Part shown: one piece after another, positions 2,524 through 55,900 of the stretch
Position numbering within the stretch: position 1 is the stretch's first letter
How the letters are laid out: the number at the start of each line of letters is the position of its first letter
NCBI GenBank assembly: GCA_035764005.1
Contig: DASTZZ010000099.1
Coordinates: 1-64,000, forward strand
DNA: 64,000 bases
Direction: 5' to 3'
DNA from: Terriglobales bacterium
Lineage (GTDB): Bacteria > Acidobacteriota > Terriglobia > Terriglobales > Acidobacteriaceae
Position numbers and translations under genes: made by a program
Notes under the pieces: generated by a model
What the model was told of the DNA's origin: nothing
The model's database searches: none
Seen by the model: only the letters and a program-made list of their open reading frames with translations

Positions 2524-4974
2524 CTATTCGTGTCGCAAAGCCACTATCGGATCGAGGCGCATTGCTCGTCTCGCAGGAATCCAGGATGCAGCAATCCCGA
2601 CGAGCATCAGCAAGACTACAACGGTGGCAAAGGTGACAGGATCGTAGCTTCTGACGCCGAAAAGCTGGCTAGCCATAAGACGCGTTAGGCCCAGCGAAGC
2701 AATAATTCCAATCAGTGCGCCCAGGGTTGTCATCCTTGTTCCATGGGTGAGCACGAGGTGCAGGATATCCCGCGGCTGAGCGCCCAAGGCCATGCGCACC
2801 CCAATTTCCTGCGTTCTCTGGCTCACCAAGTACGAAATCACTCCGTAGATTCCAACGCACGCCATCACCAGCGCAAGCCCCGCGAAAATCGCCAGCAGGA
2901 TCATCGAGAATGTTCGTGCGGACATCGAACTCGACCAGAGGTCTTCCATGGTTTGAACGTTGTAGATCACTTCACCCGGATCGAGATCTCTTATCGCAGC
3001 GCGAACCTGGCCTATGATCGCCGCTGGATCACCGTTCGTCCGCACCACTACGGCTACTCCGCTTGCTACCAGGGGCATAACCTTCTCGGGAAGCTGCATG
3101 AACGGGTAGAAGAACTGCGCTTCGATGACGGATTTCTCGTCGGCGCCAGGTCCCCACTGCTTCACGTGTCCGACTACGCCGACGATCTCAGCCTGTACGT
3201 CGAATTGCTCCAGGTTCACGCGCTTTCCTACTGGATCCTGATTAGGGAAGTAAGTACGCGCAAAAACGTCGTCGATGTCGATCACCTTGGGCGCCCGCTC
3301 ATTGTCTTGCGGCGTGATGAATCTTCCGCGTTCGAGAGTGATTCCCATGGCTTGCTGGAAGCCTGCCTCGACAAGGTAGAAGATTGCCGGATGCATGTCA
3401 TTGTCGTGTGCCGGCTTAGGCTCGCCTTCGATCCAGAATGGCAACGAGGAATCGTGAATCATTGGCCTTGAGCCCAGCGTTACCGATACGGCTTGTACTC
3501 CGGGAAGAGAACGTAACTTGTCGTCGAATGCGCGCAAGCGAGCGCGCGTATCGGCGGAGGTGGTTGTAGGTGTTGACGGCAGAGTGACACTGAATGTGAT
3601 CGCGTGGCTCGGATTAAAACCGGGATCCACGCGCCACAGTGCCGCAAGCGTTCGTACCATCAATCCTGCGCCGACGAGCAGAATCAGCGCCATTGCTACC
3701 TCGCTAGCGACGAACATGCCATGCACACGATGACGAGCTCCGGTCATGGAGCGGCCACCCTCGCTCATCGTCTGTTGCAGGCTTACTTGGCTGCCTTTAA
3801 GGGCGGGCGTGAGGCCGAACGCAATTCCCGAAAGCAGGGAAACGGCGGTCGTAAACAACAGCACTCGCACATCGATGTGTATCTCAGTCGCTCGCGGAAC
3901 AGCCGCAGGCAGTACGCCTGGCAGTGCCCGCGTAGTCCAAAATGCAAACAACAGGCCCAGTACTCCCCCAAGGCTCGAAAGCAGGACACTCTCGGTGAGA
4001 AGCTGGCGAATAATGCGCGCTTGGCTCGCCCCCAATGCCGCGCGGACCGCAAACTCTCGAGACCGTCCTATGGATCGCGCCAGAATGAGGCTCGCGACGT
4101 TCGCGCATGCGATGAGCAGAAGAAATCCCACGGCAGCCTGAAGCACGAGTAGCAACGGTTGAATATCGCCGACGATATCTTCCTTCATCGCAAGCAGGGT
4201 GATGCCAAGGTCTTTGTCCGCTTCCGGATATGCTGCTTCCAGCTTTCTGGCGATGGCATCCATTTCAGCCCGCGCCTGCGCGAGTGTCACTCCGGGAAGA
4301 AGGCGGCCGAAAGGACGTGCGCCGACTGAGATGCGGCGGTCTCGAAATGAGGAATCTCTCCATTGACCGATGGGCGTGTAGACATCTCGACTGTTGCCGT
4401 AGAAAGTGAAGCTCGCGGGGACCACGCCCACAATCTCGTACGACGATCCGTTCAGCGTTATCGTTTTGCCGATTACCTCGAAAGAGGATCCAAACTTTCT
4501 CTTCCACAACCCTCCGCTGATGACTGCCACCGGCGACGCGCCGGGTTGATCGTCATCGGCCCTCAAGTCTCTTCCCAGAATGGGATTCACCTCCAGCGTT
4601 GAGAAGAAACTGGAGGAGATCATGTAGCCGGTCAGGCGCTCGCCTTCGCCGGTGCCCGTGAGGAGGTAGTCCTCGTTGCGGTAAACAGCCATCGACGAAA
4701 ACAGCTTCGATTCGCGCTGCCAATCGAGGAAGTTCAAATAGGAGATTGGCTGCTTATCGGATCCTGGGGCGTGTCCATACCGCCCGTAGAGGGCCACGAG
4801 TTGTCCTGAGTGGTGATAAGGCAATGGGTTCAGCAGAACACCATTCACAACAGAAAATAACGCAGTGTTCGCGCCAATGCCCAGAGCGAGAGTCAGTGCC
4901 GCAATGCACGTGAACCCCGGCGATTTCTTCCACATCCGAAGAGCAAGGCGTATGTCTGACATGACGGTATTCAT
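2524..4974 (-). CDS. ADOP-type FtsX/MacB-like permease
   Basis: An 816-residue membrane protein of the acidobacterial duplicated orphan permease type, with two MacB/FtsX permease halves in one chain and no ATPase domain. The N-terminus (DIRLALRMWKKSPGFT, then a hydrophobic stretch with ALGIGANTALFSVVNG) is the hallmark. A MacB periplasmic core domain follows at about residues 50-240, then a three-helix FtsX block around 270-420, a second periplasmic domain, and a final FtsX block from about 690 to the end with TQEIGVRMALGAQPRDIL. The start at 4974 has an AAGGTGG ribosome-binding site; an internal ATG four codons later is an alternative. No partner ATPase is adjacent. Substrate unknown; efflux or lipoprotein-related transport is inferred from MacB/LolCE kinship. 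Confidence 0.9.
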   Translation of the reverse strand: MNTVMSDIRLALRMWKKSPGFTCIAALTLALGIGANTALFSVVNGVLLNPLPYHHSGQLVALYGRYGHAPGSDKQPISYLNFLDWQRESKLFSSMAVYRNEDYLLTGTGEGERLTGYMISSSFFSTLEVNPILGRDLRADDDQPGASPVAVISGGLWKRKFGSSFEVIGKTITLNGSSYEIVGVVPASFTFYGNSRDVYTPIGQWRDSSFRDRRISVGARPFGRLLPGVTLAQARAEMDAIARKLEAAYPEADKDLGITLLAMKEDIVGDIQPLLLVLQAAVGFLLLIACANVASLILARSIGRSREFAVRAALGASQARIIRQLLTESVLLSSLGGVLGLLFAFWTTRALPGVLPAAVPRATEIHIDVRVLLFTTAVSLLSGIAFGLTPALKGSQVSLQQTMSEGGRSMTGARHRVHGMFVASEVAMALILLVGAGLMVRTLAALWRVDPGFNPSHAITFSVTLPSTPTTTSADTRARLRAFDDKLRSLPGVQAVSVTLGSRPMIHDSSLPFWIEGEPKPAHDNDMHPAIFYLVEAGFQQAMGITLERGRFITPQDNERAPKVIDIDDVFARTYFPNQDPVGKRVNLEQFDVQAEIVGVVGHVKQWGPGADEKSVIEAQFFYPFMQLPEKVMPLVASGVAVVVRTNGDPAAIIGQVRAAIRDLDPGEVIYNVQTMEDLWSSSMSARTFSMILLAIFAGLALVMACVGIYGVISYLVSQRTQEIGVRMALGAQPRDILHLVLTHGTRMTTLGALIGIIASLGLTRLMASQLFGVRSYDPVTFATVVVLLMLVGIAASWIPARRAMRLDPIVALRHE

Positions 4975-8314: not shown

Positions 8315-9979
8315 TTATGCCGCAGTGTGGCGAGGCATTCTACTTTCTTCGGCAGGAAGGAAGATGCTGAACACGGTTCCACGATGATGTGGGCCCGTGC
8401 TGCTTTTTAGTCGAATGAACCCACCGTGTTTTTCGACGATGCCTTGCGACACCCAGAGACCGAGTCCGGTTCCTTTTTCCGCTTTCGTAGTGAAGAACGG
8501 TTCGAAGAGATGTGCGCGATGATCCGGGAGTATCCCTTCTCCGGTATCGCCAATCACGATGCGGACACCAAGCGTGCGCGAGTTGCACCACTCTTGTGAT
8601 CGATACACACGAATGCGCAGACATCCATCCTTGGGCATTGCTTCTACGGCATTGCCGACGAGGTTTGAAAAAACCTGACGCAATTCGCTGGCATATCCGT
8701 GAATACTGCCGCTGAAGCGAATCTCGCGCTTCACCGCGAGATTCTTGCTGCGGATCGCACCAGCGTAGAGGAACAGAGCTGAGTCGATCAACTCTGTGAG
8801 ATTTACGTCGTTCGGCGTGCCGGAGTCACGGTAGAAGGCGAGCGTTTGCCTGGTGATGTGCGCGACGCGCGAAAGCTCCTCTTGCGCGGTGTGAGCGTAA
8901 TTGCGAACGATGTCCGAGATTGCTTCGGTTTCGATCAGATAAATCAGGTTTGTAAGCGCAGCCAGTGGATTATTAATTTCGTGGGCAATCGAAGCAGCGA
9001 GCCGTCCGGTGGCGGCGAGTTTCTCTGACCTGCGCAGGGCTTGCTCGGTCCGGAGGCGCTCTTCGATATTGAAAAGCGTGATCAGCAGGCCTGCTCGTTC
9101 CATATTGGGAAGTATCAGCGGGCTCACGCTCAGGAGAAGATGGATCGCTTGATTATCCCGACGGAGGCAGACTTCGGTGCCCCGGAATTCGTTGCCGGCA
9201 AGAGCCTGCTCGATGTCGAACCATCGCTCGTCCTGCTCTTCCTCGCCGGGCCGATGATGATCGATGATCTCCAGGCGAACGACATCATCGAAACGACGCA
9301 ACAGCGGATTACCGGCAGATAAGCCTTCGAACGCGCGATTGCAGTGCTGGATGACGCCATTGCCGTCACACACGGCCATAGGCTCGCTGGCATGGCTGAG
9401 GATAAGCCTGGCCAGCTTGCCGTCAGAGACAATTTGTTCGTTTCGCTTCTGCTCGGAGAGATCCGTCACCACCATGCAAATCGCTCGGGCGCCGAACTCG
9501 ACGCAACTGCGCGCCGAAACAAACACAGGGACCTGTTCACCACTGCTGCGGGTGAGCGTGAGCTCGCAGCGTCCGCCGGAATCGTTGCTGGCCTCACGGA
9601 AGATGGCATCGAACTGGCTGCGTTCCGATTCGGGAACAAAGCCGAAGATCGAGGTTCCAATTACCATTCCCAGAGGACGCGCCAGCAGATTGGCAGCCGC
9701 TTTGTTAGCAAACAGAATGGTTCCCGCGGAATTTACGGTGATCGCTCCTTCGTCCATTGCTTCGACGAAGACCCGGTAAGCATTCTCGGTTCCCGCGAGA
9801 GTAAAAACTTGTTCATGTCCGGTGCCCGAGACAACGATGGCATCGACTCCGCCGCCACGGATGGCGGCAAGTGTGTCCTCGCATTCCTGCAGACGCACCC
9901 GCAGCTCTCTCAGTTCTTCGGAGAGACGGTTCACTTCGGCTGCGCCAGGGTCAGTTCTTTTTTGTTTTGCTACTGCCAT
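8315..9979 (-). CDS. PAS-domain sensor histidine kinase of the kai locus
   Basis: A 554-residue soluble histidine kinase. The N-terminus is a short coiled coil (residues 14-41); two PAS domains follow (about 65-175, ending with MVVTDLSEQKRNE, and about 190-305). The dimerisation/phosphoacceptor helix has IAHEINNPLA with His333. The ATPase domain shows the N box (LRQVFSNLVGNAVEAMP, 433-449), DTGEGI (478-483) and GTGLGL (503-508). No transmembrane segment, no KaiB-like sensor domain as in SasA, and no receiver domain is present. It overlaps the end of the upstream kaiB gene by 29 bases, so co-translation is likely. It is the best candidate for the output or input kinase of the KaiC module; its response regulator is not in this window. 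Confidence 0.93.
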   Translation of the reverse strand: MAVAKQKRTDPGAAEVNRLSEELRELRVRLQECEDTLAAIRGGGVDAIVVSGTGHEQVFTLAGTENAYRVFVEAMDEGAITVNSAGTILFANKAAANLLARPLGMVIGTSIFGFVPESERSQFDAIFREASNDSGGRCELTLTRSSGEQVPVFVSARSCVEFGARAICMVVTDLSEQKRNEQIVSDGKLARLILSHASEPMAVCDGNGVIQHCNRAFEGLSAGNPLLRRFDDVVRLEIIDHHRPGEEEQDERWFDIEQALAGNEFRGTEVCLRRDNQAIHLLLSVSPLILPNMERAGLLITLFNIEERLRTEQALRRSEKLAATGRLAASIAHEINNPLAALTNLIYLIETEAISDIVRNYAHTAQEELSRVAHITRQTLAFYRDSGTPNDVNLTELIDSALFLYAGAIRSKNLAVKREIRFSGSIHGYASELRQVFSNLVGNAVEAMPKDGCLRIRVYRSQEWCNSRTLGVRIVIGDTGEGILPDHRAHLFEPFFTTKAEKGTGLGLWVSQGIVEKHGGFIRLKSSTGPHHRGTVFSIFLPAEESRMPRHTAA

Positions 9980-10316
9980 ACGGGGTAATCGGGATTCCGA
10001 GCTTGTGCAGGACGTGAGTCGCGTCCTCGCTGATGCCGATGAAAGCGCGACGAGGAGGTGGTTCGACCTTAATCAGGCTAGGAGCGGCGATGATATTGTC
10101 CTCACGCGCCATTCCCGGCTCCTGGTAGAGGTCGATTACCTCAAACTTGCATCGTCCTTCAGGGAACATGGAAGCGACCCTGCGAACCATCTGAATCGCT
10201 TGCGATGATTTCAGAGTTGATCCAGCCACGTAGAGCCGGAGCCAGTACGCCGTCATGCCAGGCGCAACGCCATTTCCCCCAGGCTCACGTTCTTTGGCGC
10301 GGACTGCCCGTGGCAT
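9951..10316 (-). CDS. kaiB: KaiB-family protein (copy 1)
   Basis: A 121-residue KaiB domain protein with a thioredoxin-like fold. The diagnostic start of the fold is YWLRLYVAGSTLKSSQAI (about residues 24-41), followed by FEVIDLYQEPGMA and by NIIAAPSLIKVEPPPRRAFIG, the equivalents of the KaiB strand 2 and the PTL/LIK loop region. KaiB binds the KaiC CI ring in cyanobacteria. The start ATG has GGGAG about ten bases upstream. It lies 21 bases after the second kaiB gene and overlaps the kinase by 29 bases. Compared with copy 2 it lacks the basic N-terminal tail and ends soon after the fold. A role in KaiC regulation or in passing state to the kinase is inferred from context. Confidence 0.93.
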   Translation of the reverse strand: MPRAVRAKEREPGGNGVAPGMTAYWLRLYVAGSTLKSSQAIQMVRRVASMFPEGRCKFEVIDLYQEPGMAREDNIIAAPSLIKVEPPPRRAFIGISEDATHVLHKLGIPITPYGSSKTKKN

Positions 10317-10337
10317 CGCTCGATTGCTCCCTCGAAA

Positions 10338-10739
10338 TCATCTGCTTGCAGCAAAGCTTCGCGCCGGTTTCAAATCCAGACCGACCAGCACTCGCTCCGT
10401 GTTCGACAAGTCTCCGATAATCTTCTTGATCGGAGTGGGCAGGCGGCGAACCAGAGTGGGAACAGCGACGATCTGATCGCCGCGCGCCAGTTGCGGATTT
10501 TCAAACAGGTCGATGATTTCGATTCGATAGCGCCCGCCCATGTGCTTCTCGCAGAGCTGCTGAAGATTGCTGAACGCTGCGATTGAATTGGGCGTGTTGC
10601 CGGCGACGTAGAGGCGCAGCTCCCATTCCATAACTTTTTCCTTGGTGCCTCGCTTTGATGTCTCGCTGCGCCGACCAGCGCTTCCATTTCTAGAGCTCTG
10701 GGTGCGCCTGGTTTTTGAACTCTTCTTGTTCTTACTCAT
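10338..10739 (-). CDS. kaiB: KaiB-family protein with basic N-terminal tail (copy 2)
   Basis: A 133-residue KaiB domain protein. The core begins at about residue 39 with [20 protein letters not shown] and continues with [20 protein letters not shown] and [20 protein letters not shown], all close to the KaiB consensus (VAVPTL..P...IIGDL is more canonical than in copy 1). It is preceded by about 37 residues rich in Lys, Arg, Ser and Thr and predicted disordered. Start and kaiC stop overlap in an ATGA, which indicates translational coupling. If the KaiC ring is controlled by KaiB here, this copy is the better candidate for the classical KaiC partner. A downstream start near residue 37 (VMEWEL) would remove the tail, but the ATGA coupling favours the long form. 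Confidence 0.93.
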
Positions 10740-12340
10740 CGCGCTTTCCTTCGAGTTCCGGCCGAGTGCGCTGCTGCCCGCGCATTTTCATCGAGCAATA
10801 ACATGTGGATTCCATCATCGGTGATCTCAAATGGTTCCATCTTGCGCGAGTGCATCATGCCGCGTGATTTGAGCAGATGGATCGCGCGTTGCCGTTCGGG
10901 CGCCGCCGTGCTTACATCGCGAACCAGGATGTCCATTTCTCGCAGCAAAATCCACGTGTCCATCAGCGAGGAGATTCCGACCGCTGTCTCTTCCACCATT
11001 CCCTTGATGGTTAGATTTGTAAATAACGCCGTGATGTTGTTGATTTTGAGGAAATCGATGAGGCGCGTGAGCATCGACTTCACCGCCAATGCCTCTCCAA
11101 CCGACACCAGGTTCGTGATTGGGTCCACGACAACGATGGCCGGCTTAAAGGCCACGACCTCGCGATGCATCCTCGCCAGGTGGCCTTCAAGGCCTGTGCT
11201 GGTTGGACGCGATGCGTCGATGCGTAGCAGGCCGCGATCCATCCATGGCTCCAGATCGAGGCCAACCGAGCGCATGTTGCGCAGAATCTGGCTCGGCGAC
11301 TCCTCAAAAGCGAAGTAGAGGCAGCGTTCTCCGCGCTCCGAGGCAGCATTCGCAAAATGCGCGGCAAAGCTTGATTTGCCAGTGCCTGCGGTTCCCGAAA
11401 TGAGAATGCTGCTGTTGCGGAAAAATCCTTTTCCTCCCAGCATGCGATCGAGTCCCCGCACGCCGCTGGAGACACGATCGGTGGATGCCAGATGCGTGAG
11501 TCCGACCGAAGTGATTGGCACTACCGAGAGCCCAGTTTCATCGAGCAGGAACGGGTACTCGTTGGTTCCGTGCGCCGAACCGCGATATTTCACCACGCGC
11601 AATCGCCGCGTCGAAACCTGTTCGGTTACCCGGTGATCGAGGCGAATCACGCAATCAGCCACGTACTCTTCCAGCCCATATCGTGTGAGAGTGCCGCCGC
11701 GTGCGCCAGTCTCGGCAGTGATGATCGTCGTGACGCCCTGTTCTTTCAGCCAGCGAAACAGCCGCCGCAGTTCGGAACGGACAATTGCTTCGTTGGGAAG
11801 TCCCGTAAACAAGACTTCAACAGTATCGAGTACCAATCGTCTCGCACCGATGCTTCGAATGCCGTGCTCAATACGCACAAAAAGCCCGGAGAGATCGTAC
11901 TCGCCGGTTTCCTCGAACTCATGGCGCGCGATCTGCACGTGATCGATCACCAGCATCTTCTTCTTTTCCAGCCCAACCAAGTCATAGCCCAGTGACGCCA
12001 TGTTTTGCGCAAGTTCTTCTGCGTTTTCCTCGAAGGAAATGCAGAGGCCTGGCTCGTTGAACTCCAGCGCGCCGCAAAGGAGATACTTCATGGCAAATAG
12101 GGTTTTTCCGGATCCGGGGCCGCCACACACCAGAGTGTTTCTGCCGGTGGGGATTCCGCCGTTAGTGATCTCGTCTAAGCCTGCAGTGCCGGTGGGGGTT
12201 TTCTTGACGAATTCCTGCTCGTGCAGGAGCTTGCTGGCGACTCTTGTACGTGGGTTGCCGTCGTTCTTCATCTCGTTTCGCTCGCACACAGACTGCGTCT
12301 GGAAAGCAGGAAGCGTATGTCCTGCCTTCGTGCGGCGCAT
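10736..12340 (-). CDS. kaiC: KaiC circadian-clock-type double RecA ATPase
   Basis: A 534-residue KaiC with two RecA-like halves. CI has Walker A GGPGSGKT (73-80), catalytic Glu pair FEEN (104-105) and Walker [11 protein letters not shown] (Asp172). CII has GTAGTGKS (316-323), FEES (346-347) and [11 protein letters not shown] (Asp406). The phosphorylation segment [16 protein letters not shown] aligns with the Synechococcus site so that Thr452 matches T426, Ser457 matches S431 and Ser458 replaces T432; autophosphorylation is therefore plausible. There is no kaiA nearby. Full-length by family standard. Start is uncertain: ATG at 12340 gives about 23 extra residues, while ATG at 12271 (MKNDGNP) fits the family better. 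First gene of the kaiC-kaiB-kaiB-kinase run; divergent from a small hypothetical gene. Confidence 0.95.
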
Positions 12341-35187: not shown

Positions 35188-35203
35188 CCGACAACGTTGT
35201 CGG
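35188..35203. promoter_or_regulatory. LacI-type operator O2
   Basis: CCGACAACGTTGTCGG, a perfect 16-base palindrome, sits between the putative promoter and the start of the TonB receptor. Its 12-base core equals O1, and centre-to-centre distance is 141 bases, which would allow looping between the two sites. Confidence 0.9.
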
Positions 35204-35271
35204 AGCAATATGAAGGCGGCCCCAAAACTCAGGAGAACGATTCAGGGCTGCCTTGCCCAAGGAGTTCTTCG

Positions 35272-38200
35272 ATGAAAGCCCTTCGCCGTGCCTGCCTCCG
35301 CTTTTGCCCTCAGTTGCTTACCAGATTTCTCATTCACCGTTGTGCCGAGCTTGCAAGCGCTCTAAGCATGACGTTGATACTGGGCGGTCTCCTGATCGCT
35401 CAGGTGGCGCCCACAACCAGGCTTTCCGGCGAGGTAATGGACAGCTCCGGCGCATATGTCCCCGGCGCACAGGTCGATTTAATTATGTCGGGCACGCAAG
35501 CCGTGAGGCATGCTTCCACGAATGGCGAAGGCCGCTTCATCTTTGATCTCGTGCCTCCGGGCAGCTATGAGTTGAACGTTTCCGCAAACGGCTTCGCCAC
35601 ATTTCATCAGAGCGGCATTCAACTCGATGTAAACGTGCCGGCGGATCTAAAAGTGAAGCTGACGGTGCGCGGCGCGGTGCAGCAGGTAAATGTGATCGAG
35701 AACGCTCCCATGATCGACGCCGAATCGGGAACACTGCGCCAGGTGGTGAACGAGCGGTACATTCACGAGATGCCGCTGGAGGGCAGAAATGCGGCGGCGC
35801 TCGTATTCATGGCTCCGGGAACGGTGACCGGCAAGGGCACGGATAGAGCGGGCTATGCGAGCACCAGTGACACCATTGCAGTGTCGGTGAACGGCACATA
35901 TGGCAATCAGGTGGCCTACAAGCTCGACGGCGCCACGCATGAAGACAACATCACGAACCTGAACGCGGCCTTTCCCAATCCGGACGCCTTGGCCGAGTTC
36001 AGCGTCGAAACCAATAACTTCGACGCGCGCTACGGCGGCTCCGGCGGCGCAGTGGTAAACATCGTTACCAAATCGGGAACAAACTCTCTTCACGGATCCC
36101 TCTTCGAGTACCTTCGCAATGGCGCCCTGAACGCGACTAATTATTTCGCATCACAGAAAGACGCTCTGAAGCGTAACCAGTTCGGCGGTTCAATCGGCGG
36201 CCCGATCATTCATGACAAGCTTTTCTACTTCGGTTCCTACCAGGGCACGACTATCGCCAGTACGTCCAACGCGAACACCGCATTTGTTCCTACCGACGCC
36301 GAGCGACGCGGGGATTTTTCTGCCATCAAGAAACAACTCGTGGATCCGTTCACAAAGACCCCATTTGCCGGCAATCAGGTGCCGGTATCGAGTTTCGCGA
36401 GTGCGCTATTCAGCAAAGTTCCGACCTCAGCTGATCCGACAGGAAAGCTTCTCTACGCAGTTCCAACAGAGACTCGCAATCACCAGGGCTTGGCAAAGCT
36501 GGACTACAACGCTGGTAAGCATCAGCTTTCCGGAAGTTTCTTTTACGTGCACTACAGTGATCCCGGTTGGAACGCGAACAATACTCTGCTGAACTACAAG
36601 ATTGGCCAGCTCCAGACGACTAAAGAATTTAAGGTCAGCGATACCTGGACCCTGAGTTCGAGCCTGCTGAATTCCGTCACCTTTGACGGTCTGAACCTCG
36701 ATTCCATTCAGACGGGCACTGCTCCGTTTTCGATTTTTGATTTTGCCAACATCAATGCGAGCAAGCCTGCCCAGCAATTCCTTGAGACTGGTTTGTCGGT
36801 AACTGGATTCTCCGGTTGGGGATCCGGCGGTTCGCAGCCTCCGGGTGAATGGATACGCGGCAACTATGAAGTGTCTGATGTCGTCACCTGGGTTCGTGGG
36901 AACCATATGATGCACATGGGAGCTACATACGACCCTTATCAAAAGTTCGATTCCAAAACGGGATTTCAGGAAGATCCGGTATTGAAGTTTGACGGCTCGG
37001 GCTCGGGCAATGCCCTCGTCGATCTGATGACTGGATATGTAAGTTCGTTCACACAGACCGCAGGCAAAGCGAAGTTTACCCGCGGTCCGCAAATCAGCAC
37101 GTTCTTCCAGGATACCTGGCGCGTTTCTCAGAGACTCTCTCTTGATCTCGGCCTACGTTGGGAGCCGTTTCTTCCTTACACTGATCCAGTCGAAAATCAG
37201 GTGGGTGGTTTCATTCCGGGATTTAAGTCGCAAAGATTCCCGAATGCGCCAGTTGGGCTTGCCTTCGCGGGCGATCCCGGATTCCCCGACGGCGGTGTAT
37301 TCGCAGACACCAACAACTTTGCGCCGCGTCTCGGATTCTCTTACGCAGCGCGTCAGGGCCAGCATCCCACGACGATTCGTGGCGGATGGGGAATGTTCTA
37401 CATCATGCCTTTCATGAAGCTATACAACAACTTTGTGCAGAACGCTCCCTTCAGTCCGTCGGTGACTCTGTTCGGCACGAATCTCTTCGATCCCTACACC
37501 AGCGCCGGTGTTACCAATCCGTTTCCGCCGTTTGCTCCCGTACACGCCGACGCCAACTCTCAGTTCGTGCTACCCCAGCAATATCAGTATTTCAATACGC
37601 ACTGGGGACTTGGCCACACCAACGCTTTCAATCTCACGGTCGAGCAGCAGTTAGCCTCTGACCTGGTATTTCGCGCAGCTTACGTGGGAACACAAGGACG
37701 TGATCTTCAGTACTTTCAGGAACGGAATCCCGCGATCTACCAAACCGGCGCGACAGTCAGCAATACCAATGCGCGTCGCTCGTTGGCTCCAACTTATGCC
37801 TCGTTGATGGAGATGACCAACGATGGCGTCTCCAACTATCACTCCTTGCAGTTAACTCTAGAGAAGCGCTTTAGTTCACGATTCTCTTTGATCTCTAACT
37901 ACACTTATTCGAAGTCATTGGATAATCAATCGGTAGACAATCAGTTCACGGTGTCTGACCCTGACCCGTTTGATTCACACTTCAATTACGGCCGTTCCGA
38001 CTTTGACACTCCTCACAACCTTTCCATTTGGGGAATCTACGATCTCCCGACATTGAATGCTGCGCCGTGGCTCGTCCGCGCGGTGGCAGGTGGATGGGAG
38101 ACCGCTGGTGCATTCGCCTGGCGGAGCGGCACGCCGTTCACGGTCGTCTCTGGACAGGATCGCTCGTTCAGCGGTGTTAACCAGGACCGCGCCGATCTAG

Positions 38201-38535
38201 TGGGCGATCCGATTCTCTCCGGAGATCGTTCACGCGCAGCCACGATCGCTCAGTATTTCAATACGGCTGCTTTCGCACTCAACGCCATTGGAACGTTTGG
38301 AGACTCTCCTCGGAACCTGCTTCGCGGCCCCGGCTTCTTTAATCTCGATTGGTCGGTGCAGAAGTCGTTTGGTGAGACTCGCAAGACATCCATCCGCGCT
38401 GACTTCTTCAACGTGTTCAACAACGTCCACCTAAATGCGCCGGGAGCGAACGTGAGCAGCGCATCCACCTTTGGGAAAATTACTTCGGCCGGAGATCCGA
38501 GAATTCTTCAACTTGCCTTGAGGTACCAATTCTGA
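35272..38535 (+). CDS. Oar-like TonB-dependent receptor with carboxypeptidase-regulatory domain
   Basis: A 1087-residue outer-membrane transporter. The ATG at 35272 has AAGGAG upstream; the TTG at 35197 lies in the operator and is not a credible start. After a signal-like hydrophobic segment (SMTLILGGLLIAQ), a CarboxypepD_reg-like domain at about 33-115 (LSGEVMDSSGAYVPGAQVDL, FDLVPPGSYELNVSANG) precedes a plug with LEGRNAAALVFMAPG and NNFDARYGGSGGAVVNIVTKSG. The beta barrel fills the rest (NFAPRLGFSYA, FSLISNYTYSKSLDN) and ends in LALRYQF with the terminal Phe required for BAM. LacI control suggests uptake of a carbohydrate or glycan oligomer. Two further plus-strand genes follow. Confidence 0.94.
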   Translation: MKALRRACLRFCPQLLTRFLIHRCAELASALSMTLILGGLLIAQVAPTTRLSGEVMDSSGAYVPGAQVDLIMSGTQAVRHASTNGEGRFIFDLVPPGSYELNVSANGFATFHQSGIQLDVNVPADLKVKLTVRGAVQQVNVIENAPMIDAESGTLRQVVNERYIHEMPLEGRNAAALVFMAPGTVTGKGTDRAGYASTSDTIAVSVNGTYGNQVAYKLDGATHEDNITNLNAAFPNPDALAEFSVETNNFDARYGGSGGAVVNIVTKSGTNSLHGSLFEYLRNGALNATNYFASQKDALKRNQFGGSIGGPIIHDKLFYFGSYQGTTIASTSNANTAFVPTDAERRGDFSAIKKQLVDPFTKTPFAGNQVPVSSFASALFSKVPTSADPTGKLLYAVPTETRNHQGLAKLDYNAGKHQLSGSFFYVHYSDPGWNANNTLLNYKIGQLQTTKEFKVSDTWTLSSSLLNSVTFDGLNLDSIQTGTAPFSIFDFANINASKPAQQFLETGLSVTGFSGWGSGGSQPPGEWIRGNYEVSDVVTWVRGNHMMHMGATYDPYQKFDSKTGFQEDPVLKFDGSGSGNALVDLMTGYVSSFTQTAGKAKFTRGPQISTFFQDTWRVSQRLSLDLGLRWEPFLPYTDPVENQVGGFIPGFKSQRFPNAPVGLAFAGDPGFPDGGVFADTNNFAPRLGFSYAARQGQHPTTIRGGWGMFYIMPFMKLYNNFVQNAPFSPSVTLFGTNLFDPYTSAGVTNPFPPFAPVHADANSQFVLPQQYQYFNTHWGLGHTNAFNLTVEQQLASDLVFRAAYVGTQGRDLQYFQERNPAIYQTGATVSNTNARRSLAPTYASLMEMTNDGVSNYHSLQLTLEKRFSSRFSLISNYTYSKSLDNQSVDNQFTVSDPDPFDSHFNYGRSDFDTPHNLSIWGIYDLPTLNAAPWLVRAVAGGWETAGAFAWRSGTPFTVVSGQDRSFSGVNQDRADLVGDPILSGDRSRAATIAQYFNTAAFALNAIGTFGDSPRNLLRGPGFFNLDWSVQKSFGETRKTSIRADFFNVFNNVHLNAPGANVSSASTFGKITSAGDPRILQLALRYQF

Positions 38536-46737: not shown

Positions 46738-49281
46738 ATGAGGGACCTGAAACTCGCTTTCCGTCAACTTCGAAACAATCCTGCATTTGCGATTACCGTG
46801 ATTCTTACGCTTGCTCTCGGTATTGGTGCGAATACCGCGATTTTTTCATTAGTCCAGGCGGTGCTTTTGCAGTCGCTACCCGTGGCCGATCCGGCGACTC
46901 TCTACCGAATCGGCGATACCGACAACTGCTGCGTCAATGGTGGCTACCAGAGCGATAACGGCGATTTCGATCTTTTTTCTTATGAACTTTTTCTTCATCT
47001 GAAGCAGGCGGCGCCTGAATTTGAAGAACTGGCAGCGTTCCAGTCTGGGTACGATTACAACAATCTCACCGTCAGACGCAATTCTGAACCGGCGCGAGCG
47101 AGTCATGGGGAGTTCGTAACCGGGAATTACTTTTCCACTTTCGGGATCAAGCCGTTTCTCGGTCGCATGCTGCTGCCTTCCGACGACAAAGCTGGCGCAG
47201 CTCCGGTGACGGTTCTGAGTTATCAAAGCTGGCAGAACGACTATGCCGGTGATCCCGGTGTGGTGGGTTCAACGTTCTACATCCAGGGACATCCCTTCAC
47301 GATTGTGGGAGTTGCTCCTCCCGGATTCTTTGGCGATCGCGTTGACAGCCATCCACCTGAGGTGTGGTTGCCGCTCTCGACCGAGCTGGTTATCAACGGC
47401 GAGAATGCAATCCTGAATCATGCCGACGCGAACTGGCTTTATGCCATTGGACGTCTGAAGCCCGGAGTAAATATCTCAGCACTGCAGCAGAAGCTGTCGG
47501 CGAGTCTGCGGCAATGGCTGGCGACGCAACCAACGTATGTTCAGCGCGGAGGCGATACGCTGATTCCCAAGCAACACGTTGTGCTGACTCCAGCCGGCGG
47601 CGGCGTGCAGAACCTGCAGCAGGAAACCGGTAAGGGACTCAATCTGCTGATGGCACTTTCCGCGCTCGTGCTGTTAGTAGCTTGCGCGAACGTCGCAAAC
47701 ATTCTGCTCGCCAGGAACGCAGCCAGACGCGCCGAGACGTCATTGCGCGTTGCTTTAGGCGCCGCACGTGGACGTCTGATCAGGCAAGTGCTGGTGGAGA
47801 GCGTGTTGCTCGGATGTATCGGTGGTGCGCTGGGCCTGGCGGTAGCTTATGGCGGTACCCGAACGATCCTCGCTCTCGCCTTCCCCGACTCGAAGTACCT
47901 CCCGATCCATGCCACTCCCTCGCTTCCCGTTTTGGGATTTGCTCTTGCCGTCTCCTTCGTAACAGGGATCATCTTCGGCATCGTGCCGGCATGGATCACC
48001 TCGCGCTCCGATCCGGCGGAGGCGTTGCGTGGCATCAGCCGGTCCACGCGCGATAGCTCCTCGCTGCCGCAAAAGTCACTCATCATTTTTCAGGCGGCGT
48101 TGTCGTTGGTTTTGCTGATTGGCGCCTCATTGCTGACCAAAACGCTGCGCAATCTCGAGCATCAGAATTTCGGGATTCAAACGCAAAATCGTTACGTCCT
48201 GCATCTCGATCCACATGGCGCGGGGTACACCATCGATAAGCTGCAGCCTTTGTATCAGCGGCTGCAGCAGGATTTCTCAGCATTGCCAGGGGTAAAGAGC
48301 GTCGGACTTGCGCTGTATAGTCCGCTTGAAGGGAATAACTGGGGAGAGGGCGTGTACATCGAAGGCAGACCCGAGCCGGGTCCGAATGCCCATAATGGTT
48401 CATCGTGGGACCGCGTGAGCACCCACTTCTTTGAAACTGTAGGCCAGCCTGTAATCCGCGGGCGCGACTTCACAGACCAGGACACCGCATCCTCGCAGAT
48501 GGTCGCCATTGTCAATCAGGCTTTCGTGAAAAAGTTTTTTCCCAATGAGGATCCCATTGGGCGCCATTTCGGGAATAACGGCCAGCAGTTCGCGGGCAGC
48601 TATGAGATCGTCGGCGTCGTGGCCGATGCCAAGTACAACAATCCCCGCGGAGAATATCGCCCGTTCTATTACCGGCCGCTGACGCAACGAAATACGAGAT
48701 TTGAGAAACCCTCGGATGCGACCGGAGAAAATTGGTCGATGTTCATCAACTCGATCGTTATCCAATTCGACTCTCAGCCGCAAAATGTCGATGCGTTAGT
48801 CCGGCGTACATTGGGAAACATCGATCCCAACCTCACCGTCATTGATCTGCGATCGCTGGATTACCAAGTAGCCGGCAACTTCAATCAGGAGCGCCTCATC
48901 GCGCGCCTTACGATGCTTTTTGGAATCCTGGCGCTCGTGCTTGTATCGGTAGGCTTGTACGGGATTACTGCCTACTCTGTTGCGCGTAGAACGAGCGAGA
49001 TCGGGGTACGCATGGCGTTGGGCGCTAACCGAGGCGACGTGATTGGGATGGTGATGCGGAGCGCATTCGCGCAGGTGCTCCTCGGACTAGCGATCGGCAT
49101 CCCAATCGCTCTGCTTGGCGGCCGTCTCATAGCCTCGCAACTCTATGGTGTGCGCGCTTGGGATCCGATCAGTTTGTTGTTAGCGGTGTTCGTGCTATCG
49201 GTAGCGGCCGCGGTCGCAGGTTATGTTCCAGCGCACCGTGCATCGACCATCGAGCCCATGAAAGCACTGCGCAGCGAATAA
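46738..49281 (+). CDS. ADOP-type FtsX/MacB-like permease (second copy)
   Basis: An 847-residue duplicated orphan permease. The N-terminus DLKLAFRQLRNNPAFAITVILTL with ALGIGANTAIFSLVQAVLL is the hallmark. A periplasmic core domain, a first FtsX block (LMALSALVLLVACANVANIL, ALGAARGRLIRQVLVESVLL), a second periplasmic domain and a final FtsX block (LVSVGLYGITAYSVARRTSEIGVRMALGANRGDV) follow in order. AGGAG is upstream of the ATG. It shares the architecture of the 2524-4974 gene but has distinct periplasmic regions. No ATPase gene is adjacent; the substrate is unknown. Confidence 0.92.
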   Translation: MRDLKLAFRQLRNNPAFAITVILTLALGIGANTAIFSLVQAVLLQSLPVADPATLYRIGDTDNCCVNGGYQSDNGDFDLFSYELFLHLKQAAPEFEELAAFQSGYDYNNLTVRRNSEPARASHGEFVTGNYFSTFGIKPFLGRMLLPSDDKAGAAPVTVLSYQSWQNDYAGDPGVVGSTFYIQGHPFTIVGVAPPGFFGDRVDSHPPEVWLPLSTELVINGENAILNHADANWLYAIGRLKPGVNISALQQKLSASLRQWLATQPTYVQRGGDTLIPKQHVVLTPAGGGVQNLQQETGKGLNLLMALSALVLLVACANVANILLARNAARRAETSLRVALGAARGRLIRQVLVESVLLGCIGGALGLAVAYGGTRTILALAFPDSKYLPIHATPSLPVLGFALAVSFVTGIIFGIVPAWITSRSDPAEALRGISRSTRDSSSLPQKSLIIFQAALSLVLLIGASLLTKTLRNLEHQNFGIQTQNRYVLHLDPHGAGYTIDKLQPLYQRLQQDFSALPGVKSVGLALYSPLEGNNWGEGVYIEGRPEPGPNAHNGSSWDRVSTHFFETVGQPVIRGRDFTDQDTASSQMVAIVNQAFVKKFFPNEDPIGRHFGNNGQQFAGSYEIVGVVADAKYNNPRGEYRPFYYRPLTQRNTRFEKPSDATGENWSMFINSIVIQFDSQPQNVDALVRRTLGNIDPNLTVIDLRSLDYQVAGNFNQERLIARLTMLFGILALVLVSVGLYGITAYSVARRTSEIGVRMALGANRGDVIGMVMRSAFAQVLLGLAIGIPIALLGGRLIASQLYGVRAWDPISLLLAVFVLSVAAAVAGYVPAHRASTIEPMKALRSE

Positions 49282-52921: not shown

Positions 52922-55900
52922 GTGGGCATTTCGTATTCGCAGCTCAATTCGAAGCAAAAAGAAGCCGCCAACCATGTGTACGGTCCCATGCTGGTGCTCG
53001 CCGGCGCCGGCACAGGCAAGACCAGTGTTCTCGTCCATCGCATCTCGCGGCTGATTCTCGGCAAGCACGCCCGGCCAAACGAAATTCGGGCATTCACGTT
53101 TACGCACAAAGCTGCACGCGAGATTCGATCGCGTGTGGCGAAGTCCTCGGCGGGAATTGCGGCTGGGGGTCTGAATGCATCTACTTTCCACGGGTACTGC
53201 TATCAACTTCTGCGCGAGGCAGGTGAGGACTTTCAACTGCTCGACCAATGTGAGCTGTGGACCTTTCTGCGTCAACGCGTCGCCGATCTGCCGCTGAATC
53301 GATTCTTGCGCGCGGCGAATCCCGGGCGCTTTCTAAAAGATCTGCTCGCCTTTTTCGATCGTTGCTCCGATGAACTTGTCACAGCTGAAGTCTATGCCGA
53401 TTACATTGCACGCGTGAGTCGCGGCGAGTTGCGTCTGCCGCGAGTCGCGAAAAAAAAACAAGCAGAGGTGATGACGCGCGACGAAGTTTTAGAACGTTGC
53501 GAGGAAATCTCGGCGATCTTCAGGACGGTTGACAAGCTGCTTGCGGAAAATCGTCTGCTTACCTTCGGAGCGCTCGTTTCCCGTACTGCTACGCTGCTCA
53601 CAAATGACAGTCAGCTATTGCAGCGCGAGCGCAGTAGCGCGCGCTTTCTTCTGATCGACGAATTCCAGGACTCGAATCACGCCCAGATCGAACTGGCGCG
53701 CGTGCTTGCGGGGGAAGCACAAAATGTGTTCGCGGTGGGCGATCCCGATCAAGCGATCTATCATTTCCGCGGAGCGTCAAGCGCGGCCTTCAACGAGTTC
53801 GCCAATGTTTTTGACAAACTGGACCGCCGGCATCTGATCAACCTTGCAGAGAATCAGCGCTCGACGCAGAACATTCTCGACTGCGGCTACGCGGCAATTC
53901 GCCACAACCCGAAGCTGACCGAAGGCGGGAGTCGCCTGCAGTTTGATCGCGAAAAGTTGATTTCTGCACGCGACATCGAAGAAGGCAATCGCGGCAGCGG
54001 ATTGCTCTTCGGCGCTCAACCCGTTGATGTTGTTCCATATCGGAACTACGAAGAAGAGTGCTCCGATGTTGCAGAGCGGATTCTGGCGCTGCACGCCGAT
54101 GGTGCGCGCTGGAGCGACTGTGCCGTGCTCTTCCGCAGCCACTCGAATGCCGAAGGTCTCGTCGAAGAACTCGGAGCGCGCTCGATTCCGTTCGAAGTTC
54201 AGGACACCGACCTGTTCGAAAGCGACGCTCTCCGTGATGTAATGGCATGGCTTCACTGTGTGCATTCCCGCAACGAGGATGTGAGCTTCTTCCGGCTTGC
54301 TCTGCGGGAGGGATCGGGAGTCGATCTTTCTGAGCTGCATGAGAAATTATCGTCGGCTGCGCGGGGGACCAAAGTCGCGACTGTGCTTGAAAACGTGAAT
54401 GGTGGTCCGGAACTGCTCCGCGTCCTGCAGGTCTTTTCGGATCAACACGGATCTGAGAGTAAGGACCTGGTCCAGACAGTCCATGCCGCAGCCGATCTTC
54501 TCGGAATCGCTCGCAATGGGATCGAGCTCACGAGGTTTCTCGACTTCACGCGCAAGTGGCTGGGAAGCCGGATTTGCGCGACCGGTAAGCTGAGCGAGTT
54601 TCTCGAATTTCTCGATCTCTACCGCGAAGGCGGGGGGACGCTTGCCTTGTCCCCACCTGAGCGTCCCGAAGAGGAATTCGCAGGCGCTTCACAGGAAGCC
54701 GCCCCTGATGAACACGATGCTGTGAAGCTGCTGACCGTCCACGCGGCAAAAGGACTCGAGTTCAAAAACGTCTTTGTTCTGAGGGTGGTCAGTCCGTCGT
54801 TTCCTACCAACTATAAGGAAACACTTTTCGAATTTCCGCGAGAATTGAGTCCCGGAAGCTACCGCATCGAAAAAGCCGACGACCAGATTCATAAGGAAGA
54901 AGAAAGGCGTCTTTTTTACGTTGCAGTGACTCGCGCGCGCGACACGCTCAGCCTCTACGGCAAGAAGCGCGTAAGTAAGAAGAAGGACGCGGAAATTCCA
55001 CCGACTTATCTGCGCGAGATGAGTGAGGACCAGGCCCTCAAGCAGGCGCTCTGCATCCGTGATCCCATTTTGGTTCAGCGTGACGAAGTCACAGTCGAAA
55101 CGCCGGCATGGGTAACGCTGGCCGCCGAAAAAGTTGCGGGCAAGATCGAGTTGAGCGCGTCGGCCATCGAGGCGTATGCGACGTGTCCGATGAAATTCGC
55201 CTTGCAGAAGCGCTGGCGTTTGCCCGAGGAGCCGTCGGCCGCGCTTCAATATGGGGCGGCCATGCACACCGCGCTCAAAGATTTCTATGAAGCGGCATCG
55301 CGAGGAATCGATCGCACTGCCGACGAAACTGTGGAAATCTTCCGGCGCGAGTTCGAGCACGCCAAGATCGATGAAGAGCTCCAGCGAAGGCTGTACGAGA
55401 GACAAGGCGAAGAGCAACTGCGTCAATTTATTGCGCTTCGTGCGGTCGAACCCAGGCCGCACGTGCTGTGCACTGAAAAATCAATTCGCTATACGATCGA
55501 AAACGTGGTGATCAATGGTCGCATCGATCGGATCGATCGTTTGGAAGGTGGCGGCGTCCTCGTCCTCGACTACAAAACTGGCGCACCACGCAACACCCTT
55601 GATGCTGTGAACAGCATTCAACTCGGGCTCTATTCGTTGGCGGCGGAGCTCGAAGGCCATCGCGTAGAGCGAGCCGCCTTCTACAACCTTGAAGACAATA
55701 CAACTGCTGAAACGACCAGCGTTAAAAAAGAAAAAATCTATGAACAGGTGATGGAAGTCGCCGAAGGCATTCGCAACGCGAACTTCGCGCCGACGCCTGG
55801 GTTCCATTGCAGGAATTGTGGATACAGGACTCTGTGTCCAGCAACGGTGGAGACGGTGTTCGAACCGGGCGAGAAGAGAGCCGCAGGACTTGGTGTCTAG
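52922..55900 (+). CDS. Single-chain UvrD-family helicase with RecB-type nuclease and Fe-S cysteines
   Basis: A 992-residue SF1 helicase-nuclease. The N-terminus has the Q motif SQLNSKQKEAANH and Walker A AGAGTGKT (27-34), then FTFTHKAAREI, LIDEFQDSNHAQ (Walker B, about 245), GDPDQAIYHFRGA, LLTVHAAKGLEFKNV and RRLFYVAVTRARDTL. From about residue 735 a PD-(D/E)xK nuclease of RecB/AddB type follows: LSASAIEAYATCPMKFALQ, GRIDRIDRL (about 865), VLDYKTGAP (about 883). The Cys of YATCP with C-x2-C-x5-C in FHCRNCGYRTLCP (about 962-971) forms the pattern of the AddB/Cas4-like 4Fe-4S nuclease. GTG start with weak ribosome-binding site. Probable role: DNA end processing and repair. Confidence 0.93.
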   Translation: MGISYSQLNSKQKEAANHVYGPMLVLAGAGTGKTSVLVHRISRLILGKHARPNEIRAFTFTHKAAREIRSRVAKSSAGIAAGGLNASTFHGYCYQLLREAGEDFQLLDQCELWTFLRQRVADLPLNRFLRAANPGRFLKDLLAFFDRCSDELVTAEVYADYIARVSRGELRLPRVAKKKQAEVMTRDEVLERCEEISAIFRTVDKLLAENRLLTFGALVSRTATLLTNDSQLLQRERSSARFLLIDEFQDSNHAQIELARVLAGEAQNVFAVGDPDQAIYHFRGASSAAFNEFANVFDKLDRRHLINLAENQRSTQNILDCGYAAIRHNPKLTEGGSRLQFDREKLISARDIEEGNRGSGLLFGAQPVDVVPYRNYEEECSDVAERILALHADGARWSDCAVLFRSHSNAEGLVEELGARSIPFEVQDTDLFESDALRDVMAWLHCVHSRNEDVSFFRLALREGSGVDLSELHEKLSSAARGTKVATVLENVNGGPELLRVLQVFSDQHGSESKDLVQTVHAAADLLGIARNGIELTRFLDFTRKWLGSRICATGKLSEFLEFLDLYREGGGTLALSPPERPEEEFAGASQEAAPDEHDAVKLLTVHAAKGLEFKNVFVLRVVSPSFPTNYKETLFEFPRELSPGSYRIEKADDQIHKEEERRLFYVAVTRARDTLSLYGKKRVSKKKDAEIPPTYLREMSEDQALKQALCIRDPILVQRDEVTVETPAWVTLAAEKVAGKIELSASAIEAYATCPMKFALQKRWRLPEEPSAALQYGAAMHTALKDFYEAASRGIDRTADETVEIFRREFEHAKIDEELQRRLYERQGEEQLRQFIALRAVEPRPHVLCTEKSIRYTIENVVINGRIDRIDRLEGGGVLVLDYKTGAPRNTLDAVNSIQLGLYSLAAELEGHRVERAAFYNLEDNTTAETTSVKKEKIYEQVMEVAEGIRNANFAPTPGFHCRNCGYRTLCPATVETVFEPGEKRAAGLGV

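Follow-up and report, generated by a model that had tools for sequence, protein, structure and literature searches.

The first 64,000 nucleotides of contig DASTZZ010000099.1 (assembly GCA_035764005.1, a Terriglobales bacterium of the Acidobacteriota), hereafter the window, encode an operon of kaiC, two kaiB genes and a PAS-domain histidine kinase, without kaiA. The operon is of a known kind and its layout is widespread; the elements that look new are a module of ~54 residues at the N-terminus of the kinase, which is near-exclusively linked to kaiBC, and the two KaiBs, which are separate families bound to gene position. The module, its specific kaiBC linkage and the two families go beyond the initial annotation of the locus. 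From the sequences we infer, with a probability of about 0.58, that the operon is a KaiBC timer, or a metabolic switch, that works independently of KaiA and has a kinase dedicated to it (binding, timing and direction of the signal included). We propose that in systems lacking the SasA route the module would couple KaiBC to its signalling proteins.

The four genes, all on the minus strand, are kaiC (10736..12340; 534 amino acids, two RecA-like domains, Pfam KaiC at 9.3e-110), the kaiC-adjacent kaiB-a (10338..10739; 133 amino acids, a-type, Pfam KaiB at 5.5e-27), the kinase-adjacent kaiB-b (9951..10316; 121 amino acids, b-type, Pfam KaiB at 3.7e-18) and the kinase gene (8315..9979; 554 amino acids, with PAS, HisKA and HATPase_c domains by Pfam). 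kaiC and kaiB-a share ATGA, a 4-base overlap; 21 bases separate kaiB-a from kaiB-b, which overlaps the kinase gene by 29 bases. Both KaiB matches of the whole genome (5.1 Mb, 97.5% complete) lie in the operon. KaiA (PF07688), which membership among the KaiABC oscillators requires, has zero matches in this genome, and among 14 control genomes only S. elongatus matched it. The gene positions, overlaps and motifs of the initial annotation were all recovered, as was its KaiBC set without KaiA.

A kinase module linked to kaiBC

The kinase has the H-box histidine (His333), the N-box (from residue 439) and the G boxes (478 and 503) of histidine kinases, with a HisKA domain at residues 325-384 (8828..9007) and a HATPase_c domain at residues 430-544 (8348..8692), both by Pfam and, like all features of the operon, on the minus strand. 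Pfam finds two PAS stretches, the second of them weaker, and one alone survives a stricter limit; the first PAS domain (residues 68-173; 9461..9778) is delimited by Pfam and by a structural model. No KaiB match was found in the kinase with Pfam, in agreement with the initial annotation, and the SasA model NF006800 does not rank in the top 25 of the 75 NCBIfam models matched by the kinase. The N-terminus carries instead the module (9773..9928, by module profile and model), which consists of a helix, the segment AIRGGGVDAIVV and a hairpin, the pattern of the middle segment being AIRxGxVDAxVV. In an AlphaFold2 model of residues 1-183, made with 62 relatives (mean predicted local distance difference test score, pLDDT, 91.2), the helix spans residues 11-41 and the hairpin residues 47-51/56-60, with the PAS domain next; the hairpin is modelled with lower confidence (blocks at 79 and 74). 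No Pfam or NCBIfam model covers the module, five segments giving weak matches with a best E of 0.022, and the best E among solved structures is 0.03. In the genes after kaiB, among which the module was discovered, 84 of 136 carry the strict pattern and 125 of 136 match a profile. Profile A2 includes the window sequence and 14 further rows that come from Acidobacteriota-sample genomes.

Three genome samples define the specificity of the module. With at most 16 candidates scored per genome in the Acidobacteriota phylum sample and at most 35 in the other two, which leaves absences incomplete, the full-length module was found in 20 of 31 KaiB-positive and none of 365 KaiB-negative genomes of the phylum sample, in 13 of 19 KaiB-positive and none of 169 other genomes of a Bacteroidota sample, and in 7 of 31 KaiB-positive and none of 159 other genomes of a third sample (the phylum of a Rhodocyclaceae record). 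Pooled, these are 40 of 81 KaiB-positive and 0 of 693 KaiB-negative genomes (Fisher 1.4e-44, uncorrected for kinship and including the centre genomes G000, G768 and G775, which were picked for having the set; 37 of 78 without them), and in every one of the 40 the full-length match lies beside kaiB. Genomes count as KaiB-negative when no match exceeds the curated cut-off; in the phylum sample 25 of them do have a KaiB match below it. At E <=1e-4 the phylum sample has matches in 25 of 396 genomes, 20 of them full-length and five weak, the latter comprising three KaiB-positive genomes with the match beside kaiB (G293, G098 and G224) and two KaiB-negative ones (G203 and G164). The Bacteroidota sample has matches in 13 of 188 genomes, all beside kaiB, and the third sample in 8 of 190, seven full-length beside kaiB and one partial in a KaiB-negative genome (G1088). 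All matches classed as not full-length (two in G293, one each in G203, G098, G164, G224 and G1088) end at or before profile position 41.

In the window's own genome, where all 60 candidates were scored, the single match is the window kinase. The module was also followed in the genomes behind 44 of 80 named loci (the best 80 of at least 575, so that layout counts from them are biased); these genomes were likewise fully scored, 11 of them having supplied profile rows, and the module is present in 44 of 44, once in 39. Extra copies at L257, L258, L262 and L261 belong to kaiC-kaiB-kaiB-module loci, with one opposite-strand copy in addition at L261; at L260 a piece of kaiC lies ~1 kb away at the contig end. 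At L259:6440-11767 (genome G062) the module stands at the start of a kinase-type frame of 1,776 residues, and the 13 kb read there contain no Kai gene; this may be a second protein coupled to KaiBC. G766 has a weak third match. When the module alone was used as the query (E <=0.01), 13 of 72,556 plasmid records matched, all among the 16 plasmids with kaiC and nine from one species; gene order was read in five of the module plasmids, that of R. sphaeroides KD131 included. The module was found in 0 of 50,697 phages.

Among 67 module proteins taken from the window and from the named loci (66 locus rows), PAS was matched in 66, HATPase_c in 48, HisKA in 36, HisKA_2 and HisKA_3 in 5 each, a receiver in 15, sigma-54 activator domains in 4, and GGDEF, EAL and HD in 2 each. 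The conserved unit is the module with the first PAS domain ahead of varied effectors, a variety that would suit an output adaptor. The mean column identity of the module is 56% (A2) vs 11% for the full-length module proteins. Over 84 loci the divergence of the module tracks that of KaiB-a beyond KaiC, KaiB-b and PAS (partial correlation 0.34, 0 of 300 permutations), and PAS divergence relates to KaiB-a at 0.01; for the 60 named loci alone the module values are 0.31 (KaiB-a), 0.159 and 0.105. The method is coarse, and these values hint that the module may contact KaiB-a. In cyanobacteria, KaiB is contacted by CikA.

Two KaiB families bound to gene position

The initial annotation had treated the two KaiBs as distinct, and both a tree and profiles place them in separate families. 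Profiles built on the other half of the data classify 204 of 204 copies correctly by position, a set that leaves out three middle KaiBs and 39 single ones; built on the named loci, the models are right for 70 of 70 acidobacterial copies, and built on the acidobacterial set they are right for 134 of 134 named copies. This classification was added because the KaiB tree is weak (a FastTree of 246 domains over 88 columns, in which 118 of the 243 inner branches are open). Counted over the 102 kaiC-adjacent and 102 farthest copies alone, the tree needs two label changes, and with single and middle copies included 12 for a and 5 for b, vs shuffled means of 78; one a-position copy (L125_a) falls on the b side. 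Wherever the two families can be distinguished, KaiB-b is always the copy nearest the kinase side. Characteristic residues (T. elongatus numbering) are W8, F25 and L48 in the a family and Y8, I25 and Y48-Q49 in the b family. Both window KaiBs score above the PF07689 gathering threshold of 27 bits (93.7 for KaiB-a, 65.4 for KaiB-b) and below the cut-offs of the equivalogs NF006798 and TIGR02654 (110 and 145.3), KaiB-a at 104.2 and 99.7 and KaiB-b at 55.8 and 56.2. The b profile matches the N-domain of SasA (6x61 at 8.2e-6, 1t4y at 1.7e-5) and the a profile matches 6x61 only at 0.045, which places the kinase-side family nearer to the KaiB-like domain of SasA than KaiB-a is. Neither position-bound KaiB families nor such a kinase module is described in the open-access texts searched (subscription papers and figures lay outside the search), and within that literature both appear to be new. 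The position-bound families raise the question why many such systems retain a second, different KaiB. Longer arrays also occur, with four kaiB domains in a row after kaiC in a planctomycete (L176:6724-8183) and three in a row in L125:4422-5416 (G700).

Three prolines have been tied to slow fold switching of KaiB (PMC11551320, in the part consulted), and they are kept in 97 of 102 a-type and 100 of 102 b-type copies. The substitutions I68R, V83D and N84R (N84A in the methods) are described as shifting R. sphaeroides KaiB to the binding fold (PMC10808063, in part). At these positions the window KaiB-b has R/H/K, and the window KaiB-a has I/V/G as in ground-state KaiBs. The residue types of the window KaiB-b would thus favour the fold-switched state, a property of the window and one relative and not of the b family: residues of the fold-switched type number none in 66, one in 23, two in 11 and three in 2 (the window and L093) of the 102 b-type copies, and none in 99, one in 1, two in 1 and three in 1 (L125) of the 102 a-type copies. 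The idea of KaiB-b as a fold-locked family was rejected on the count of 66. AlphaFold2 modelled KaiB-b with a topology like that of thioredoxin (mean pLDDT 76.7); the model was not counted as evidence because uniformly sampled alignments yield only this state for T. elongatus KaiB, as stated in the part of PMC10808063 consulted.

KaiC of the hourglass type

The window KaiC has two Walker A motifs (residues 73-80 and 316-323), two Glu pairs (104/105 and 346/347) and the phosphosite row T452-x4-S457-S458 (10967..10987, by motif reading and structure alignment), in which S457/S458 correspond to S413/S414 in the R. sphaeroides protein and T452 to a threonine; the two Walker A motifs, the two Glu pairs and the S-S phosphosite are the features of the R. 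sphaeroides type. The best solved chain is R. sphaeroides KaiC (538 bits), most other full-length KaiC chains scoring 303-319 and 8zn5 355; the cyanobacterial chains lie at ~303-319 bits. The protein scores 657.4 bits with NCBIfam NF006799 (cut-off 408), and because it scores 330.1 bits with the circ_KaiC equivalog TIGR02655 (cut-off 546.25), it is predicted not to be of the cyanobacterial KaiC1 kind. R. sphaeroides KaiBC is described as running without KaiA as an ATP/ADP-driven hourglass (PMC10076222, in part), and the Rhodobacter proteins are grouped with KaiC2/KaiB2 in the portion of PMC11372060 consulted.

The tail of the window KaiC extends 36 residues past KSRGMMHS; tailed relatives have at least 109, and the coiled coil associated with dodecamers was not found. 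In the compared regions the tails after KSRGxxHS fall into two length classes, 24-41 and 109-172 residues. By these comparisons the window KaiC is of the R. sphaeroides hourglass type, without the coiled-coil tail. The loci that combine a short KaiC tail with two kaiBs are all acidobacterial, L141 excepted; the idea that tail length decides between one and two KaiBs was rejected, both tail classes being found with either number. In L092, L097, L104, L120, L123 and L126 kaiC is seemingly split over two or three open frames, as broken genes or assembly errors.

Distribution of the layout

KaiB matches over the cut-off occur in 31 of 396 genomes of the phylum sample and 50 of 398 of the family sample, so that the Kai set is patchy in distribution. 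Gene order was read in 153 regions, 143 of which could be scored for the module; outside these are six without kaiC followed by a scored kaiB (L054, L061, L063, L094, L118 and L199) and four with too little downstream sequence (L195, L206, L099 and L166). Each of the pairs L139/L039, L155/L122 and L209/L034 represents a single contig, which enters the layout and module counts twice and the KaiB tree once. Two kaiBs follow kaiC in 19 of 32 phylum-sample regions, 14 of 40 family-sample regions and 69 of the 80 named loci, and one kaiB in 10 of 32, 23 of 40 and 9 of 80; L199, a named locus that the scoring recorded as having no kaiB, proved on inspection to have two, together with the module. Two kaiBs are therefore usual in the phylum and elsewhere, a single one being commoner in the window's own family. 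The named loci include Bacteroidetes, alpha- to deltaproteobacterial groups, Acidobacteria, planctomycetes, Nitrospira, Anaerolineales, Lentisphaerae, Spirochaetia and Candidatus Methanoperedens. Because the gene order recurs across phyla, the operon layout is not due to chance. The comparison of gene order proposed in the initial annotation found the order kept in relatives, so that the lack of conservation named there as a refutation did not arise. The notion that the layout is peculiar to this acidobacterium was not supported, the layout being widespread and kaiC-kaiB-kinase operons already published.

The module lies within 600 bases of the last kaiB in 130 of the 143 scorable regions, as it does in the window, namely in 97 of the 103 that have at least two kaiBs, 26 of 30 with a single a-type and 7 of 10 with a single b-type copy. 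Because 26 of 30 single-a-type regions have the module and one kaiB is commoner in the family sample, KaiB-b is not required for pairing with the module kinase.

Several arrangements depart from this layout. In four acidobacterial loci (L049:4845-5531, L052:5755-6432, L056:6513-7265 and L057:4538-5239) a CRP-type regulator (cNMP_binding and HTH_Crp_2) without the module replaces the kinase after kaiC-kaiB-kaiB. In two genomes of the same family the gene immediately after the module kinase encodes a LuxR-type response regulator (L042:3834-4466 and L048:7225-7908), a likely type of partner for these kinases. In the third sample many KaiB-positive genomes (G1081:C26, G1006:C178 and others) have two kaiBs ~2 kb apart and no module, an arrangement that probably uses another coupling. 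Candidate KaiB-kinase fusions in L060, L046 and L044 were rejected, the long frames there overlapping kaiC in another frame.

Elsewhere in the window are two genes for MacB/FtsX-type permeases (2524-4974 and 46738-49281), one for an outer-membrane beta-barrel protein (35197-38535) and one for a UvrD-helicase with a PD-(D/E)XK nuclease domain (52922-55900).

Proposed mechanism and alternative explanations

In the proposed mechanism KaiC would autophosphorylate S457/S458 at high ATP/ADP, as R. sphaeroides KaiC does without KaiA; KaiB-a, as a slow fold-switcher, would bind the CI ring of KaiC after hydrolysis and drive dephosphorylation, and KaiB-b, nearer to the KaiB-like domain of SasA and in the window with residue types favouring the thioredoxin-like binding fold, would be another partner of KaiC, one that binds it more readily. 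Information on the state of the KaiB-KaiC complex would reach the kinase via the N-terminal module directly ahead of the first PAS domain, and the kinase would then signal to a response regulator encoded away from its own gene. A broader proposal, which we hold tentatively and put slightly short of even, is that the helix-hairpin module, common to kinases, sigma-54 activators and cyclic di-GMP enzymes across many phyla of bacteria as well as Methanoperedens archaea, may be a general, non-SasA coupling element of non-cyanobacterial KaiBC timers, docking on the KaiB-a/KaiC complex and working with two ancient KaiB families, one slow-switching and the other, at least here, in the binding fold.

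Several observations weigh against this interpretation. The full-length module is missing from many KaiB-positive genomes (24 of 31 in the third sample; 11 of 31 and 6 of 19, respectively, in the phylum and Bacteroidota samples), so that it accompanies one KaiC type and not all KaiB, and 13 of the 143 regions are without it. The Kai set was found in none of the 5 same-genus genomes listed, and no response regulator was found among the genes nearest to the window kinase. Module divergence also correlates, more weakly, with KaiB-b (0.148, 4 of 300 permutations) and KaiC (0.152, 1 of 300). Finally, because the window KaiB-b is strongly diverged (end branch 0.83, among the longest; best identity 49%), it could be decaying, and this possible decay, together with the single-kaiB majority in the window's own family, lowers confidence.

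Of the alternatives, a stress or nutrient switch without a timing function has a fair share of the probability, though well below even: a Legionella KaiB was implicated in stress responses and not in rhythms (PMC10808063, in part), and the Kai set, being patchy, is dispensable. KaiC, however, retains the residues of the R. sphaeroides hourglass, and the stress and timer readings are mutually compatible. It is unlikely that the kinase serves as an input, its PAS domains sensing redox or another cue and the module delivering the signal to KaiC or KaiB. Such a relay of a redox/oxygen signal to the clock was suggested for the kinase beside R. sphaeroides kaiBC (PMC5520375 and, in part, PMC10931921), and the module forms one unit with the first PAS domain (66 of 67 module proteins match PAS); however, the same module precedes output effectors (the 4 sigma-54 activators and the 2 GGDEF, 2 EAL and 2 HD proteins among the 67), and in the relatives L042 and L048 the kinase is followed by the LuxR-type response regulator.

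We regard it as improbable that the module is merely the inherited N-terminus of a kinase family travelling with the operon, without contact to Kai proteins. Genes of one operon share a history, the first PAS domain is kept as well and the Fisher values are not corrected for kinship, but the module holds 56% column identity against 11% over the full length while the effector type changes, and its divergence tracks KaiB-a, as that of the PAS domain does not. Equally doubtful is a split SasA, in which KaiB-b, nearer to the SasA N-domain, on the kinase side wherever the two families can be told apart and in the window overlapping the kinase gene, would be the kinase's own adaptor and do the job of SasA jointly with it: the 26 single-a-type regions have a module kinase without KaiB-b, R. 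sphaeroides KD131 being among such sets, module divergence follows KaiB-a more than KaiB-b, and no KaiB-kinase fusion was found in 153 regions.

Comparison with known systems

The closest known relative of the proposed KaiBC timer or switch is the hourglass of Rhodobacter (Cereibacter) sphaeroides KD131 (L238; PMC10076222, in part), which provides the best solved match of both KaiC (538 bits) and KaiB-a (105.5 bits) and has the same T-x4-S-S row, the same kaiC-kaiB-kinase order and no KaiA; its kinase, RSKD131_RS21470, carries the module (52 bits). It differs in having one a-type KaiB vs two in the window, an HWE instead of a HisKA kinase, and a coiled-coil tail on KaiC. Rhodopseudomonas palustris likewise has KaiA-free kaiC, kaiB and a PAS histidine kinase, probably in one transcript, with a single KaiB as described in the part of PMC4794148 consulted. 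Gene contexts in which kaiC-kaiB precedes a kinase or GGDEF/EAL protein were described outside cyanobacteria in 2011 (PMC3164672, in part); the N-terminal domain defined there sits on kinases beside kaiC without kaiB, and the part consulted, figures aside, mentions neither tandem KaiB families nor the module.

The fold-switched KaiBs of Legionella (4KUN) and KaiB-TV4 (8UBH) resemble the window KaiB-b in that 4kun is the top structural match of its model and R/H/K occupy the positions of I68R, V83D and N84R/A (PMC10808063, in part); however, with the b profile 4kun (93.6 bits) and 8ubh (75.1) score lower than the KaiBs of R. sphaeroides and of cyanobacteria (118-106 bits). Like SasA, the window kinase is a histidine kinase with a presumed tie to KaiC, and the window KaiB-b resembles the SasA N-domain more than KaiB-a does; in place of a KaiB-like domain, however, this kinase has the other N-terminal module. 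Non-cyanobacterial clocks are stated to need an output other than SasA-RpaA, the kinases there lacking a KaiB-like domain, and the route was left open (PMC5520375). The module, tightly adjoining kaiBC, is a concrete and testable candidate for this missing output route; it also serves to pick out, from the many sensor proteins of a genome, those that are part of a KaiBC system, and it is present in R. sphaeroides KD131, the source of a KaiA-free KaiBC complex with solved structures.

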